Position numbers and translations under genes: made by a program
Shown: positions 28,514-62,783 of the stretch, piece after piece
Layout: the number at the start of each line of letters is the position of its first letter
Position numbering within the stretch: the first letter of the stretch is position 1
The notes under the pieces: generated by a model
The model's input: the letters and a program-made list of their open reading frames with translations, nothing else
The model's database searches: none
Told to the model about the DNA's origin: nothing
Source: Cohaesibacter intestini
GTDB lineage: Bacteria; Pseudomonadota; Alphaproteobacteria; Rhizobiales; Cohaesibacteraceae
DNA length: 64,000 bases
Direction of reading: 5' to 3'
Assembly (NCBI RefSeq): GCF_003324485.1
Contig: NZ_QODK01000006.1
Location: forward strand, 62,001-126,000

Positions 28514-29722
28514 ATGCGTTATGAGAGTCAATTGTTGGACGCCGTTGAGAGCTGTCCAGTCCCAAATGATGATCTGGGCTGGCATGGACAATCTCTTGCG
28601 CAAAAAGAGCAGTTGAGTGTGCTCATTGTTGAAGATGATGATTTTGATTTTCACATCATCAAACGCTTCATGCTCGAAGCCAAAGGATACAGCGCCAAAA
28701 TTGACCGAGCGTCTTCTCTTGCCAAAGCCAAGCTTGCTGCCACTCACCGTCGCTATGATGTTGTTCTGATTGACTTCTGTTTGGGAGACGACACCGGCGT
28801 GCTTGCTATGAGCGCTTTTGGTGGCCGTCAGTCTGATTGCGTGATGATCCTGATTACAGGGATGTTGGCCCCGGATATTCAAAAGATCTCCCTCAAAGCC
28901 GGTGCTGTCAGCTGTATCGACAAAGAACAGCTCAATGCGAAAATGCTGGAAGCCACAATAACCACCGCTCTGCACAATCACAGACTGGAACAAGAGCTTC
29001 ATCGGGCCATTTTCGATCTTGAGGAAGCGACCCGAGCGAAGAATGCTTTCTATGCCAACATGAGCCACGATCTGAAGACGCCATTGAATGCAATCATGGG
29101 GTATGCAGAGATCATTTCAAGCAACTGCCTCAACTTGCCGGTTCCAGATCAGTATCGTGACTATGCCAACTTGATCCGGTCGGGCGGATTGCATTTGCTC
29201 GAAGTGATCAACAATCTTGTCTTAAGCGCGAGCGACAAGATCAACAGCGTTGGTGGGCCGTTTGAACAGGCCAACCTTAATCTGTTGGTAGACAAGGCGC
29301 TTGAGCTTGTGCTGATCTTGGCTCAGAACAAGTCCATCAACGTGGATCTTTCTCCATCAAATGAGGCCATTCCGGTCTATTGTCAGCCGTCCTTGATTAC
29401 GCAAGCCATTGTCAACATTCTGTCCAACGCGATAAAATACACGCCAGATGGCGGGCATATTGCGGTTCGCGTACATTCATGCGGCGAAACCCACTGTGTG
29501 TCGATCGAGGATTCCGGCATCGGCATGAGCCAAGACGACATCGAAATCGCAAAAGCCCCATTTGGGCGCTGCAAATTGCCACCGGAGCTGTCTCAGGAAG
29601 GCACCGGGCTGGGGCTGTCGATCGTGGACCGAATTGCCGTCAGTCATCAGGGAGGTGTTTTGATTGAAAGTCAGCCCGGAGTGGGAACAAAAGTGACGCT
29701 CAAATTGCCTGCCATTCAGTGA
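28514..29722 (+). CDS. receiver-histidine kinase hybrid (N-terminal REC, intact kinase)
   Basis: A 402-residue cytoplasmic protein with reversed hybrid architecture. A receiver domain (about 35-155: VLIVEDDDFDFH, acceptor Asp87 in LIDFCLGDD, Thr in ILITGM, Lys in SCIDKEQL) is followed by a linker helix. A dimerisation/phosphoacceptor domain comes next (His185 in YANMSHDLKTPLNAIMGYAE), then a complete ATPase domain (N box NILSNAIKYTPDGG, G1 EDSGIGMS, G2 GTGLGLSIVDRI). It should autophosphorylate and be controlled through its own receiver. No sensor or membrane segment is present. ATG 28514 follows a purine-rich GGGGGG eight bases upstream. It is first of three related genes. Confidence 0.9.
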   Translation: MRYESQLLDAVESCPVPNDDLGWHGQSLAQKEQLSVLIVEDDDFDFHIIKRFMLEAKGYSAKIDRASSLAKAKLAATHRRYDVVLIDFCLGDDTGVLAMSAFGGRQSDCVMILITGMLAPDIQKISLKAGAVSCIDKEQLNAKMLEATITTALHNHRLEQELHRAIFDLEEATRAKNAFYANMSHDLKTPLNAIMGYAEIISSNCLNLPVPDQYRDYANLIRSGGLHLLEVINNLVLSASDKINSVGGPFEQANLNLLVDKALELVLILAQNKSINVDLSPSNEAIPVYCQPSLITQAIVNILSNAIKYTPDGGHIAVRVHSCGETHCVSIEDSGIGMSQDDIEIAKAPFGRCKLPPELSQEGTGLGLSIVDRIAVSHQGGVLIESQPGVGTKVTLKLPAIQ

Positions 29723-29869
29723 AGCCAGCTGTGAGAAAATGCGCGAGCGTCTCACCCTCCTTGGGTATGCGACTTTCCTTGACCGACGCGCGGACTCTCG
29801 TGCTAGTCTTCAGCCTGTGGACCGGATCGCGACCGCGACCGATCAATCGATGGTTTTTTGGGTGCATAT

Positions 29870-30643
29870 GTGACAGATCTTACTCTTCTTTCTCGAGATG
29901 AATTGTTTGACTATATTCATGCATTGGAAAGGCAGCTTGATCAACATGCTCAAGCACAGGCCAACGACCATCTCCCACACTCTTCCAAGTCGTATCATGA
30001 AGTCAGTCGGCGTATAGCCCATGATGTCAAAGCACCTGTCAGGCAAATCGCTCAACTTAGCGAAATACTGGTTCAGAACACCCAGAGAGTGGTTGATGAG
30101 GAGACGCTAACCGTTGTCGATATGATCAAGAACCGGGCGGCAGAACTTGATATTCGACTGGATGAACTCCGCGCCTTCAGTTCCGCGCATTTTCTACCAC
30201 TAAACTGCGAGACTGTTTCCTTCGTCGAAATCGTAGAGTCATGCCGACTCAGCTTGGGGCTTGGTGATGATCGAGTCACTTTTGCAAGTGATGAAGAGAT
30301 TTTGGTTCAGGCCGACAGAATGCTACTGACCCTCCTTTTTAACAACCTGTTGATATTTCTGTTCAAATCTTATGATTTGTCGCCGTTGATCAAAATATCA
30401 TTGCATTCGGACGAGGTTTCACCCTTCGCGAGGACGCTCGACATTTCGGTCTCTGGTTATGTTTTTGAAACTACGGAAAAATCCGGACTGTTTGAGCCAT
30501 TCACAACCATCAGCACCAATGACATCGATATGAGTGCCGGGCTGAAATTGAGTATTTGTGCCCAGGTATGCAAGCGTCACGGTTGGACTTTGTCAGAAGA
30601 CTTTTCTGGCCGGGAAGGCTTCTCCATTAAATTGCATTTGTGA
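29870..30643 (+). CDS. histidine kinase-like protein with degenerate ATP-binding domain
   Basis: A soluble protein of about 257 residues. A short coiled N-terminus is followed by a phosphoacceptor helix with the His retained (RRIAHDVKAPVRQIAQLSEI, His51). The ATPase fold is recognisable (FNNLLIFLFK for the N box region), but the DxGxG motif is lost (DISVSGYVFETTEK) and the G2 loop reads AGLKLSICA in place of GLGLxI. Autophosphorylation by itself is doubtful. Its His could instead be a phosphotransfer site for the neighbouring kinase or receivers. The start is uncertain: GTG 29870 and TTG 29858 are the options and neither has a strong ribosome-binding site. Confidence 0.75.
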   Translation: MTDLTLLSRDELFDYIHALERQLDQHAQAQANDHLPHSSKSYHEVSRRIAHDVKAPVRQIAQLSEILVQNTQRVVDEETLTVVDMIKNRAAELDIRLDELRAFSSAHFLPLNCETVSFVEIVESCRLSLGLGDDRVTFASDEEILVQADRMLLTLLFNNLLIFLFKSYDLSPLIKISLHSDEVSPFARTLDISVSGYVFETTEKSGLFEPFTTISTNDIDMSAGLKLSICAQVCKRHGWTLSEDFSGREGFSIKLHL

Positions 30644-30695
30644 AATCCGCTTTGTCTATTACCTTTAAGAGAAGGCTGGAGCTTGGGGGAAGACT

Positions 30696-31871
30696 ATGGC
30701 TGGCAGTTTGATGGATGATATATCGGAAACTAGCCCTGTTTCTGATGGCGCTGACTATGGGGGTCATTCGGTTCAGATGTCGTGTCTGTTGATCGACGAT
30801 GATCCGATCGACATTCGCTATGTTAGCTGGCTATTGCAACAGGCAAACGGTTTCGACTTGAAGGTTCAAACGGCTTCGTCTCTCAGAGAGGCGCGCCGTC
30901 TTTGCACCCAGCAAGAGTTCGATCTTTATCTATTCGATTATTGGATGGGAGAAGATTCGTCTGTTTCCCTGCTGCAGGAACTCGCCTCCAGATCAGGCGC
31001 TCCGCATATGATGGTGGTCATGTCTTCGCTGGATGACGAAAGTTTTCAGCGTTTGAGCCTTGAATCCGGTGCCGACTTCTTCTTAGCCAAGCAGAATCTA
31101 TCCCATCTTACCCTTGAGAAACTGTTGCAACGGGTGTTTTACGCGGCATCAAAACGCCGCGCCAATACCCAGCACCATCTCGACGAAGACCAAAGGACCG
31201 ATGCCTGGATGCGGTCATTGCGGTCTCAGTTGGATAAGGTGCATGGCTATTCCGTGCTAGCCATGTCGTCTCTTCACAACCACACGAGGGAGGAGGCGAA
31301 AAGTCATCTGGCCGATGCGATCGCATGTCTGTCGGGCATTCGCAATGAAATGCCCTATATGAATGCGAGTCTGAGCAATGGCCACAAACGATCAGAAGTC
31401 GTCCTCTCGCCGTTCGACGTCAGTCAGTTGCTGTCAAGCACGGTCGAAGCCTGCAGTTTGGAGGCTGAGCAGTTCAGCAAACGGGTGAGTTTCTACGAAC
31501 AGGTTGAGGATTCCATCATCCTGTCTGATCCTATGCTGCTACAAGACCTGCTGACCATTACGCTTCGCGGGGCCATTCGTCATGGGGAAATGGCCAGCGA
31601 CATCGCAGTCAGTTACGAGCTGCAGCCAACAAATCTGGAGATTTTCATTTCCGAATTCGGCGCATCCGAAGATGCCGAAGTTGAGAATTATGATTATGAA
31701 GGCCGCGAGGTTATGCAACTCTCCAACTTGTTCGGCGAAGAGCGGACAGGCAGCTTTCTCGTGGCTGATCATATCCTCAAGCGTCTTCAAGGCAGCTGGG
31801 CAATGGGCCGTCGGGACAACAATACGGAAATCAAGCTCCGCATCCCTTTGAATATCGACGCTCTCAACTAA
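30696..31871 (+). CDS. response regulator fused to a pseudo-histidine-kinase domain
   Basis: A 391-residue protein. The receiver (about 27-150) looks functional: SCLLIDDDPID, acceptor Asp81 in LYLFDYWMGED, Ser in VVMSS and Lys132 in LAKQNLS. The C-terminal 220 residues align by pattern with the kinase region of the first gene in the cluster, but the phosphoacceptor position reads WMRSLRSQLDKVHGY with Arg where His is expected. The ATPase N box (TITLRGAIRHGE) and both G boxes are lost. It is therefore a receiver with a non-catalytic kinase-like output, perhaps a dimerisation partner. GGGGGAA precedes the ATG. No DNA-binding or enzymatic output domain is present. Confidence 0.8.
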   Translation: MAGSLMDDISETSPVSDGADYGGHSVQMSCLLIDDDPIDIRYVSWLLQQANGFDLKVQTASSLREARRLCTQQEFDLYLFDYWMGEDSSVSLLQELASRSGAPHMMVVMSSLDDESFQRLSLESGADFFLAKQNLSHLTLEKLLQRVFYAASKRRANTQHHLDEDQRTDAWMRSLRSQLDKVHGYSVLAMSSLHNHTREEAKSHLADAIACLSGIRNEMPYMNASLSNGHKRSEVVLSPFDVSQLLSSTVEACSLEAEQFSKRVSFYEQVEDSIILSDPMLLQDLLTITLRGAIRHGEMASDIAVSYELQPTNLEIFISEFGASEDAEVENYDYEGREVMQLSNLFGEERTGSFLVADHILKRLQGSWAMGRRDNNTEIKLRIPLNIDALN

Positions 31872-61547: not shown

Positions 61548-62783
61548 ATGAATGATGTAGCAAAAGAGCCCTGGTTGAGTGTGATCGGCATTGGCGAAAG
61601 CGGTGTCGAGGATATCAGCAAATTCGGCTGGAGCCTGTTGGCACAAGCTGAGTATATCCTCGGTGGTGCCCGCCATCTGGCGATGGTGCCCGATGACCTC
61701 GCCCCTGAGGCCGAACGCATTGTCTGGCCATCCCCTCTGTCGGAGGTTTTTGCCCGCCTTAAACGCCTGCGGGGCAAAAAGGTGGTGGTTCTTGCCAGCG
61801 GCGATCCGATGTTCTTTGGCATTGGCGGCACCTTCTCACGGCATTTCCCGTGGGAAGAAGTGCGGGTCCTGCCCTTCCCCAGTTCCCTGAGCTTTGCCGC
61901 CAGCCGGATGGGATGGCCGCTCAACAAAACCACATTGCTTACCATCCATGGCCGCAATCCGGCGGCCTTGCTGCCGCATTATCTGCCCGGCGCAAAGTTG
62001 CTGATCCTGTCCAAGGACGGCACGTCGCCGGCCACCGTTGCCAAGCAACTGGTGGAGCGCGGTCTTGAGCAAGCGTCCATTTCGGTGCTCGAGCATCTGG
62101 GTGGTGATGAGGAAAAGATCATTGCCAGCAACGCCACGGCCATTGCTGCGGGAGGCGACGCGTTCCGCTTTGCCGATCTCAATGTGATCGCCGTGTCTCT
62201 GCCGCAGGAAATGCCTTTCTGGCTGCCGGTTACACCGGGCCTGCCCGACGATGCCTTTGATCATGACGGCAAAATGACCAAACGGGATATTCGCGCCAGT
62301 GCAATGGCCAAGCTCGCCCCGCGCCCCAATGCGCTTTTGTGGGATGTGGGCACGGGCTGTGGCTCAATCGCCATTGAGTGGCTGCGGGCCCATCCGACCT
62401 GCCGCGCTGTTGGCATCGAACCTCAGGAAAAGCGGCGCGCCTATGCGCTTCACAATGCCGAAATGCTGGGCGTGCCCCATTTGCGGCTGCTAAATGGCAC
62501 AGCCCCTGATGGTTTGCGCGGTGAAGAAGCCCCCGACGCGATTTTCATTGGTGGCGGGCTGAGTGCCGACGTCGTCAATTTCTGTCTCAAGGCCTTGAAG
62601 CCCGGTGGTCGTCTGGTGGCCCATGCGGTCACGCTGGGCTCCGAACAACTCCTGCTCAATCTTTATCAAAGCCATGGTGGTGATTTGACCCGTCTGTCGA
62701 TCGCCAAAGCGGAGCCGGTTGGCCCGCTTCATGGCTGGAAATCTGCAATGCCCGTGACCCAATGGGTCTTTCTCAAACAATAG
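61548..62783 (+). CDS. cobL: precorrin-6Y C5,15-methyltransferase (decarboxylating)
   Basis: The 411-residue protein fuses CbiE and CbiT. The N-terminal half (about 10-215) is a tetrapyrrole methylase (LSVIGIGESGVEDISKFG, VVVLASGDPMFFGIGGTF). The C-terminal half is a Rossmann SAM methyltransferase (ALLWDVGTGCGSIAIEWLRA, AVGIEPQEKRRAYALHNA, AIFIGGGLSADVVNF). It methylates C5 and C15 and decarboxylates the C12 acetate. ATG 61548 is used; a TTG directly after the cobH stop is the alternative. Confidence 0.95.
   Translation: MNDVAKEPWLSVIGIGESGVEDISKFGWSLLAQAEYILGGARHLAMVPDDLAPEAERIVWPSPLSEVFARLKRLRGKKVVVLASGDPMFFGIGGTFSRHFPWEEVRVLPFPSSLSFAASRMGWPLNKTTLLTIHGRNPAALLPHYLPGAKLLILSKDGTSPATVAKQLVERGLEQASISVLEHLGGDEEKIIASNATAIAAGGDAFRFADLNVIAVSLPQEMPFWLPVTPGLPDDAFDHDGKMTKRDIRASAMAKLAPRPNALLWDVGTGCGSIAIEWLRAHPTCRAVGIEPQEKRRAYALHNAEMLGVPHLRLLNGTAPDGLRGEEAPDAIFIGGGLSADVVNFCLKALKPGGRLVAHAVTLGSEQLLLNLYQSHGGDLTRLSIAKAEPVGPLHGWKSAMPVTQWVFLKQ

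Follow-up and report, generated by a model that had tools for sequence, protein, structure and literature searches.

Three consecutive genes in a 64,000-nucleotide stretch of the genome of the marine bacterium Cohaesibacter intestini (herein the window; positions 62001 through 126000 of contig 6, genome size 4.79 Mb) encode one intact histidine kinase and two relatives without ATP-binding motifs. The first (herein G1) joins a receiver to a complete kinase core, the second (G2) keeps its phospho-acceptor His, and the third (G3) couples an intact receiver to a pseudo-histidine kinase. The arrangement suggests that dead kinases have been re-used as relay and reader proteins, and we tentatively propose that the trio may form a small, receiver-gated signaling unit of one live and two dead kinases. 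All three genes lie on one strand, at the coordinates given for them in a preliminary description of the window made from its sequence; their features are as follows.

28514 to 29722, + strand: G1, intact receiver-controlled histidine kinase with a receiver (residues ~32 through 150), HisKA, and HATPase_c (Pfam above cut-offs, motifs invariant in 10 sequences)
29066 to 29068, + strand: codon of the G1 phospho-acceptor His185, in SHDLKTP (sequence, alignment)
29858 to 30643, + strand: G2, DHp with phospho-acceptor His and a degenerate ATP-binding (CA) domain (Pfam, alignment, model m17dd53fec655)
30020 to 30022, + strand: codon of G2 His55, invariant in 10/10 aligned orthologues
30696 to 31871, + strand: G3, intact receiver and pseudo-histidine kinase, DHp-like and CA-like without ATP motifs (Pfam, profile comparison, model m673c352b8cde, Foldseek)
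30936 to 30938, + strand: codon of the G3 receiver phospho-Asp81 (family alignment)
31212 to 31214, + strand: codon of G3 Arg173, at the phospho-acceptor position (profile alignment, family alignment)
31242 to 31244, + strand: codon of G3 His183, ten residues past the acceptor position and seven past Arg176 (family alignment)

G1 Has a Complete Kinase Core

Pfam matches were judged against the family cut-offs, and conservation and the ratio of nonsynonymous to synonymous substitution rates (dN/dS) were taken from ten orthologue sets. Searched in the longer frame 28142 through 29719, G1 matches Response_reg (41.9 bits), HisKA (51 bits), and HATPase_c (87.1 bits), all above cut-off, and His185 together with the N, DxGxG, and GxGLGL boxes is invariant in all ten aligned G1 sequences, in agreement with the intact architecture first described for it. 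We place the start at ATG 28514 because an AG-rich stretch precedes it and the match in genome G012 begins at the same residue. A receiver followed by HisKA and HATPase_c, with the His and the boxes conventionally called N, G1, and G2 intact, is the structure of a receiver-controlled histidine kinase. In one such protein, LvrB, which is catalytic and carries its phospho-His at H161, the receiver controls the attached kinase core (excerpt of PMC13269768). G1 has the same order of receiver, DHp, and CA domains along with the kinase motifs, and these intact motifs point to an active receiver-controlled histidine kinase of the LvrB type. Within the trio, G1 is the sole candidate source of phosphate.

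As the preliminary description had noted, no sensor or output domain scores above the Pfam cut-off in G1, G2, or G3, and reading of the three sequences without a predictor gives no membrane segment.

G2 Keeps Its His and Has Lost Its ATP Motifs

The start codon of G2 is uncertain (TTG 29858 or GTG 29870). The window copy has no HisKA match in Pfam and scores 19 bits for HATPase_c against a cut-off of 26.4; the copy in genome G006 reaches 23.8 bits for HisKA, under the cut-off of 26.9. Kinase ancestry is supported by the PDB, where the histidine kinase domain of the bacteriophytochrome RpBphP2 (8f71) matches at E = 1.1e-7, the other four matches listed being at 0.05 or worse. By sequence reading, G2 retains His55-Asp56 and an LFEPF motif; its N box is missing the second Asn and its DxGxG motif the Asp, and the GxGLGL loop is gone, so that the first account of a kept His and lost ATP loops holds. 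With HATPase_c below cut-off and these residues gone, the domain is not a functional HisKA-kinase ATP-binding domain as judged from its motifs, and from the lost motifs we infer that G2 cannot use ATP.

Among the ten orthologues the DHp has a mean identity of 54% with 13 of 75 columns invariant, the CA half 31% with 4 of 151. Eleven positions around the His (R51, R52, H55, D56, A59, P60, R62, Q63, I64, Q66, and L67) are invariant in 10/10, and all ten orthologues have Ala at His+4. For pairs with unsaturated dS, dN/dS is ~0.05 to 0.35 in the DHp and ~0.18 to 0.6 in the CA half.

A phosphate sink or decoy DHp, draining a receiver of the locus, would also account for the conserved His helix. HisKA phosphatases, however, use Thr or Asn at His+4, and the Ala found there in all ten orthologues opposes HisKA-type phosphatase activity; we regard a sink as unlikely. 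The kept His helix, the lost ATP motifs, and the Ala at His+4 instead fit a phosphotransfer role like that of ChpT, which in the CckA-ChpT-CtrA relay is a His-bearing, kinase-like phosphotransferase that does not bind ATP (excerpt of PMC3433190). G2 resembles it in combining a DHp that bears the His with a CA domain lacking ATP motifs, and is most likely a ChpT-like phosphotransfer protein, distinct from ChpT. It is not ChpT itself: G2 has no match to Pfam PF10090 (HPTransfase) up to E = 1, no CtrA-like gene stands among the trio, and the genome encodes its ChpT elsewhere, at G000:C4:214663. Around that ChpT gene (G000:C4:214663-221095; L167, L078), CheB-like and CheR-like matches lie within ~6.5 kb.

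G3 Is a Maintained Receiver Pseudokinase

G3 matches Response_reg at 46.7 bits. The window copy has neither a HATPase nor a HisKA match in Pfam, and a sub-threshold AAA_14 match (19.6 bits, cut-off 27) was taken as chance. Profile comparison aligns G3 with G1 from end to end (356 columns, 99.8%, E = 2.5e-27) and sets Arg173 of G3 against His185 of G1. Together with the domains of G1, the PDB match of G2, and the fold matches described below, this alignment bears out the proposal that all three genes are related to kinases. Where the preliminary description had Arg in place of the lost His, the ten Cohaesibacter copies have Arg or Lys; the intact receiver and the absence of ATP boxes that it reported both stand.

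The predicted structure of G3 (model m673c352b8cde) comprises a receiver, a long helical hairpin, and a CA-like fold. Its six best Foldseek matches are LvrB chains; TM-scores are low (0.28 to 0.31), and it is the E-value and the order of domains that carry the match. Matches of G3 from VIA-align are mostly receiver-driven, and the absence of LvrB from the 50 listed is neutral. G3 differs from LvrB in having no His at the acceptor site and no ATP motifs, with Arg, Lys, Thr, or Glu at that site in 36/36 members of the wider family defined below, and is not a receiver-controlled histidine kinase by these features.

In the models, Arg173 of G3 is 21 residues from the helix end and His55 of G2 is 20; both profile alignment and this helix register identify Arg173, rather than His183, as the residue at the acceptor site. 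This bears on the suggestion that His183 is a relocated phospho-acceptor, which would make G3 itself a receiver plus phosphotransfer protein. The residue does lie within helix 1 of the predicted hairpin and is kept in 10/10 Cohaesibacter copies and 20/36 family members, but 16/36 lack it, and with the acceptor site occupied by Arg173 we find a relocated acceptor improbable.

Mean identity among the ten orthologues is 68% in the receiver of G3, 65% in the CA-like half, and 55% in the DHp-like region, and dN/dS is at most ~0.15 in every region in five close pairs. As the ATPase-like half is about as conserved as the receiver, G3 reads as a maintained pseudokinase. The lost ATP motifs, and in G2 the quick change of a CA half with dN/dS of ~0.18 to 0.6, might be taken for decay of former kinases into pseudogenes. 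That reading is largely contradicted by the constraint on G3 and on the DHp of G2 (~0.05 to 0.35), by frames that are open in all 10 genomes, and by the presence or absence of the two genes only together within the genus, and it is very improbable; stops in three G2 matches (G001, G007, and G014) fall, by their coordinates, upstream of the start codons.

A transmitter fold that is kept with its acceptor His replaced is the condition of DivL, a re-used transmitter that binds a phosphorylated receiver and has no kinase activity (excerpt of PMC4211667). A DivL structure is among the fold matches. DivL differs in having PAS sensors and a Tyr, where G3 has an N-terminal receiver, Arg or Lys, and no ATP motifs. 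By this analogy, G3 is most likely a receiver-gated pseudokinase working like DivL.

Occurrence within Cohaesibacter

Among 18 Cohaesibacter genomes, G1 is present in 12 and G2 with G3 in 10 (that of the window, G001, G002, G004, G006, G007, G009, G013, G014, and G016). G2 and G3 are never seen apart, nor without G1. Neither of the outcomes that the preliminary description had named as fatal to it, G2 and G3 unrelated to kinases or the genes scattered among relatives, is what we find within the genus. The pair always comes with G1, but the three genes are not the whole set: in 8 of the 10 pair-bearing genomes two more signaling genes lie between G1 and the pair, namely a single-domain receiver and a CheB-CheR-PAS-HisKA-HATPase protein of ~1560 residues (herein the big kinase). 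Examples of the latter are as follows.

L080, 4166 to 8827, - strand: big CheB-CheR-PAS-HisKA-HATPase kinase
L062, 6724 to 11388, + strand: big CheB-CheR-PAS-HisKA-HATPase kinase

The big kinase occurs in 9/18 genomes (G001, G002, G003, G004, G007, G009, G013, G014, and G016), and by tblastn the receiver, G1, and the big kinase are found together in the 8 genomes and in G003. Its GAF match is just below cut-off in Cohaesibacter and just above it in Maritalea. Among the matches listed from the open-licence PubMed Central (PMC) literature, no title names a CheB-CheR-PAS kinase fusion. In the genome of the window we found no orthologue of the big kinase or of its receiver: the best match to the former is 30% identical and confined to the PAS-kinase end, with none at E <= 1e-100, and the best match to the latter is 37% identical, against 71 to 98% among Cohaesibacter copies. 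This genome does have a second signaling cluster (L075; G000:C2:622000-641000) with kinases of 634 and 782 residues, a 384-residue receiver-kinase, and two single receivers, whose motifs look intact by reading.

Matching sites in sister species differ in what they hold. Genome G012 shares the window flanks (main matches 80 to 95% identical) and has an intact G1 followed ~105 bases on by an AEC transporter, with no pair; G003, which shares flanks with G001, carries G1, the receiver, and the big kinase without the pair; and G006, sharing flanks with G016, has the trio without the receiver and big kinase. Loss is the simpler reading of these differences.

Divergence was compared in two distant species pairs (L062 vs. 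L063 and L066 vs. L071, the AEC row left out). Identities there are 40% and 47% for G2, 65% and 69% for G3, and 72% and 68% for G1, against 77 to 94% for flanking genes; synonymous divergence is higher in most signaling genes (~1.7 to 2.3 vs. 0.9 to 1.9 in the flanks), near saturation. In the close pair G001/G007 the values are 85% (G2), 91% (G3), 96% (G1), and 94 to 99% (flanks).

Upstream of G1 in the window, on the opposite strand (23724 through 28019), lie genes that read as membrane-lipid or lipid A modification functions (DedA-like, glycosyltransferase, PAP2-like, and ArnT-like; names by sequence reading). In L062 (517 through 4377), and also in L063, L070, and partly L064, an iron-only-hydrogenase-like gene (619 residues) and an Fe-S pyridine nucleotide oxidoreductase gene (665 residues) stand beside the signaling locus.

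Origin of the Three Genes

The preliminary description saw a kinase degrading stepwise across the trio, and this part of it is not supported. In a tree of 53 kinase domains, whose deep nodes are weakly supported, G2 forms a clade of its own with 100% support, apart from both G1 and the Cohaesibacter big kinase. Outside the orthologues, its profile is best matched by a Maritalea sequence, the kinase domain of a CheB-CheR big kinase (83 bits), compared with 13 to 22 bits for the Cohaesibacter big kinase and 7 to 10 bits for G1, so derivation of G2 from the big kinase of its own locus is unsupported. G3, which aligns to G1, hardly aligns to G2 (probability only 16.5%). Because G2 is a separate lineage, the trio is not a set of successive copies of one gene, and we reject stepwise decay of a single gene.

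The G3 Family beyond the Genus

The G3 profile matches at E <= 1e-16 in 50 of 397 genomes of the order, many rows being receiver-only or G1-like. Of 66 rows, 41 were examined and 36 counted as G3 family; G1-like rows, misaligned around the His, were left out of the residue counts. A class-wide search at E <= 1e-30 returned only the genome of the window (1/385), in a sample with few members of the order. At the acceptor position the 36 members have Arg (21) or Lys (11), together 32/36, Thr (2), or Glu (2), and none has His. Receiver Lys132 is present in 36/36. At the Asp81 position 26 members have Asp and the other 10, all from one genus (g99), have Glu; in the loci of this genus (L169-L175 and L177-L179) Glu occupies the receiver phospho-Asp site in 10/10 and Arg is kept at the lost-His position. 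It is possible that these are locked-on receivers.

Four G1-like sequences of other families (G131, G097, G163, and G061; L150, L151, L152, and L154) carry Arg or Lys in place of the His and keep an Asn box and a DxGxG-like sequence. This pattern hints, but does not prove, that loss of the His came first. A G3 relative in Maritalea porphyrae adjoins a receiver and a CheB-CheR-PAS kinase, and in genome G033 a G1 relative adjoins a big kinase and a receiver 61% identical to the Cohaesibacter receiver. In L072 (6643-7815 and 8784-11084) a G3 relative lies near a gene that reads as a Wzc-type polysaccharide co-polymerase/kinase.

A broader proposal, rather doubtful as a whole, is that G3 belongs to a class of receiver-gated pseudo-histidine kinases that is widespread in the order and as yet undescribed. 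His would have given way to Arg or Lys, possibly before loss of the ATP site, and the dead transmitter would read phospho-Asp electrostatically, one genus having Glu, a possible phosphate mimic, for the receiver Asp. In Cohaesibacter, G3 would work alongside another dead kinase that has become a phosphotransfer protein, and the resulting relay would have a single live kinase and lack any DNA-binding output.

Discussion

In the mechanism that we propose, phosphorylation of the receiver of G1, a soluble protein, would tune G1 autokinase activity, and G1 would supply phosphate to the module. Through its His, G2 would pass phosphoryl groups from one receiver to another, as ChpT does, here those of G1 and G3 and in relatives perhaps also the single-domain receiver. 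The phosphorelay of the preliminary description, made up of kinase 1, receivers 1 and 3, and the gene 2 His, is thus possible. The receiver of G3 would accept phosphate, whereupon its pseudokinase half, with Arg or Lys, would dock a partner (a phospho-receiver, or the DHp of G1 or G2) with no catalysis, as DivL does with its Tyr; output would then be through protein contact. In most pair-bearing relatives, the CheB-CheR-PAS histidine kinase may feed the same module.

RetS and GacS offer a different model, of kinase-fold proteins acting on another kinase through contact, RetS being a membrane sensor hybrid. On such lines G2 and G3 would carry no phosphate and would regulate G1 by docking or by heterodimer formation (RetS/GacS- or DivL/CckA-like), His55 serving fold or contact. 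The fold matches of the two proteins include RetS chains and DivL, as well as many active kinases, and a co-complex entry is among the matches listed; the pseudo-CA domain of G3 is strongly conserved, and a contact role would suit the receivers that have Glu for Asp in one genus. G2 and G3 differ from RetS in having no sensor domain above the Pfam cut-off. G2, moreover, keeps its His-Asp in 10/10 orthologues while its other half varies freely, a pattern more in keeping with His chemistry than with pure docking. We consider docking alone possible, if on the unlikely side. RcsD has a kinase-like region and an HPt domain and is membrane-bound; its use of an HPt domain and its place in the membrane set it apart from the trio. 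It is the phosphotransferase of a relay (excerpt of PMC3762810).

Several observations weigh against a relay of one live and two dead kinases. The dN/dS of the CA half of G2 rises to 0.6, so that constraint on half of this protein is weak, and G2 evolves fast relative to flanking genes. The two structure models are moderate (pLDDT 72.9 and 69.3; pTM 0.43 and 0.63). G1 occurs without the pair in two genomes and so does not need it, and 6/18 genus genomes are without all three genes (G005, which is 64% complete, G008, G010, G011, G015, and G017). No G2 was found with the Maritalea G3 relative, its receiver, and its CheB-CheR kinase. Of the 11 added G3-family members, from another genus of the order, 10 carry Glu in place of the receiver Asp, or a receiver that is not phosphorylatable there, and phospho-gating is thus not universal in the family.

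Among the titles and abstract openings listed from the open-licence PMC literature, none describes the combination of G1, G2, and G3, in keeping with the preliminary statement that no named system with this exact set was known. ChpT and DivL are alphaproteobacterial cases in which dead histidine kinases were re-used, and both kinds of re-use seem to occur here side by side, beside a live kinase. Each half of the locus is missing from some sister species, and the sequences from G131, G097, G163, and G061 point to a path by which a kinase could become a pseudokinase. The origin and the job of pseudo-histidine kinases are here directly testable with small soluble proteins.

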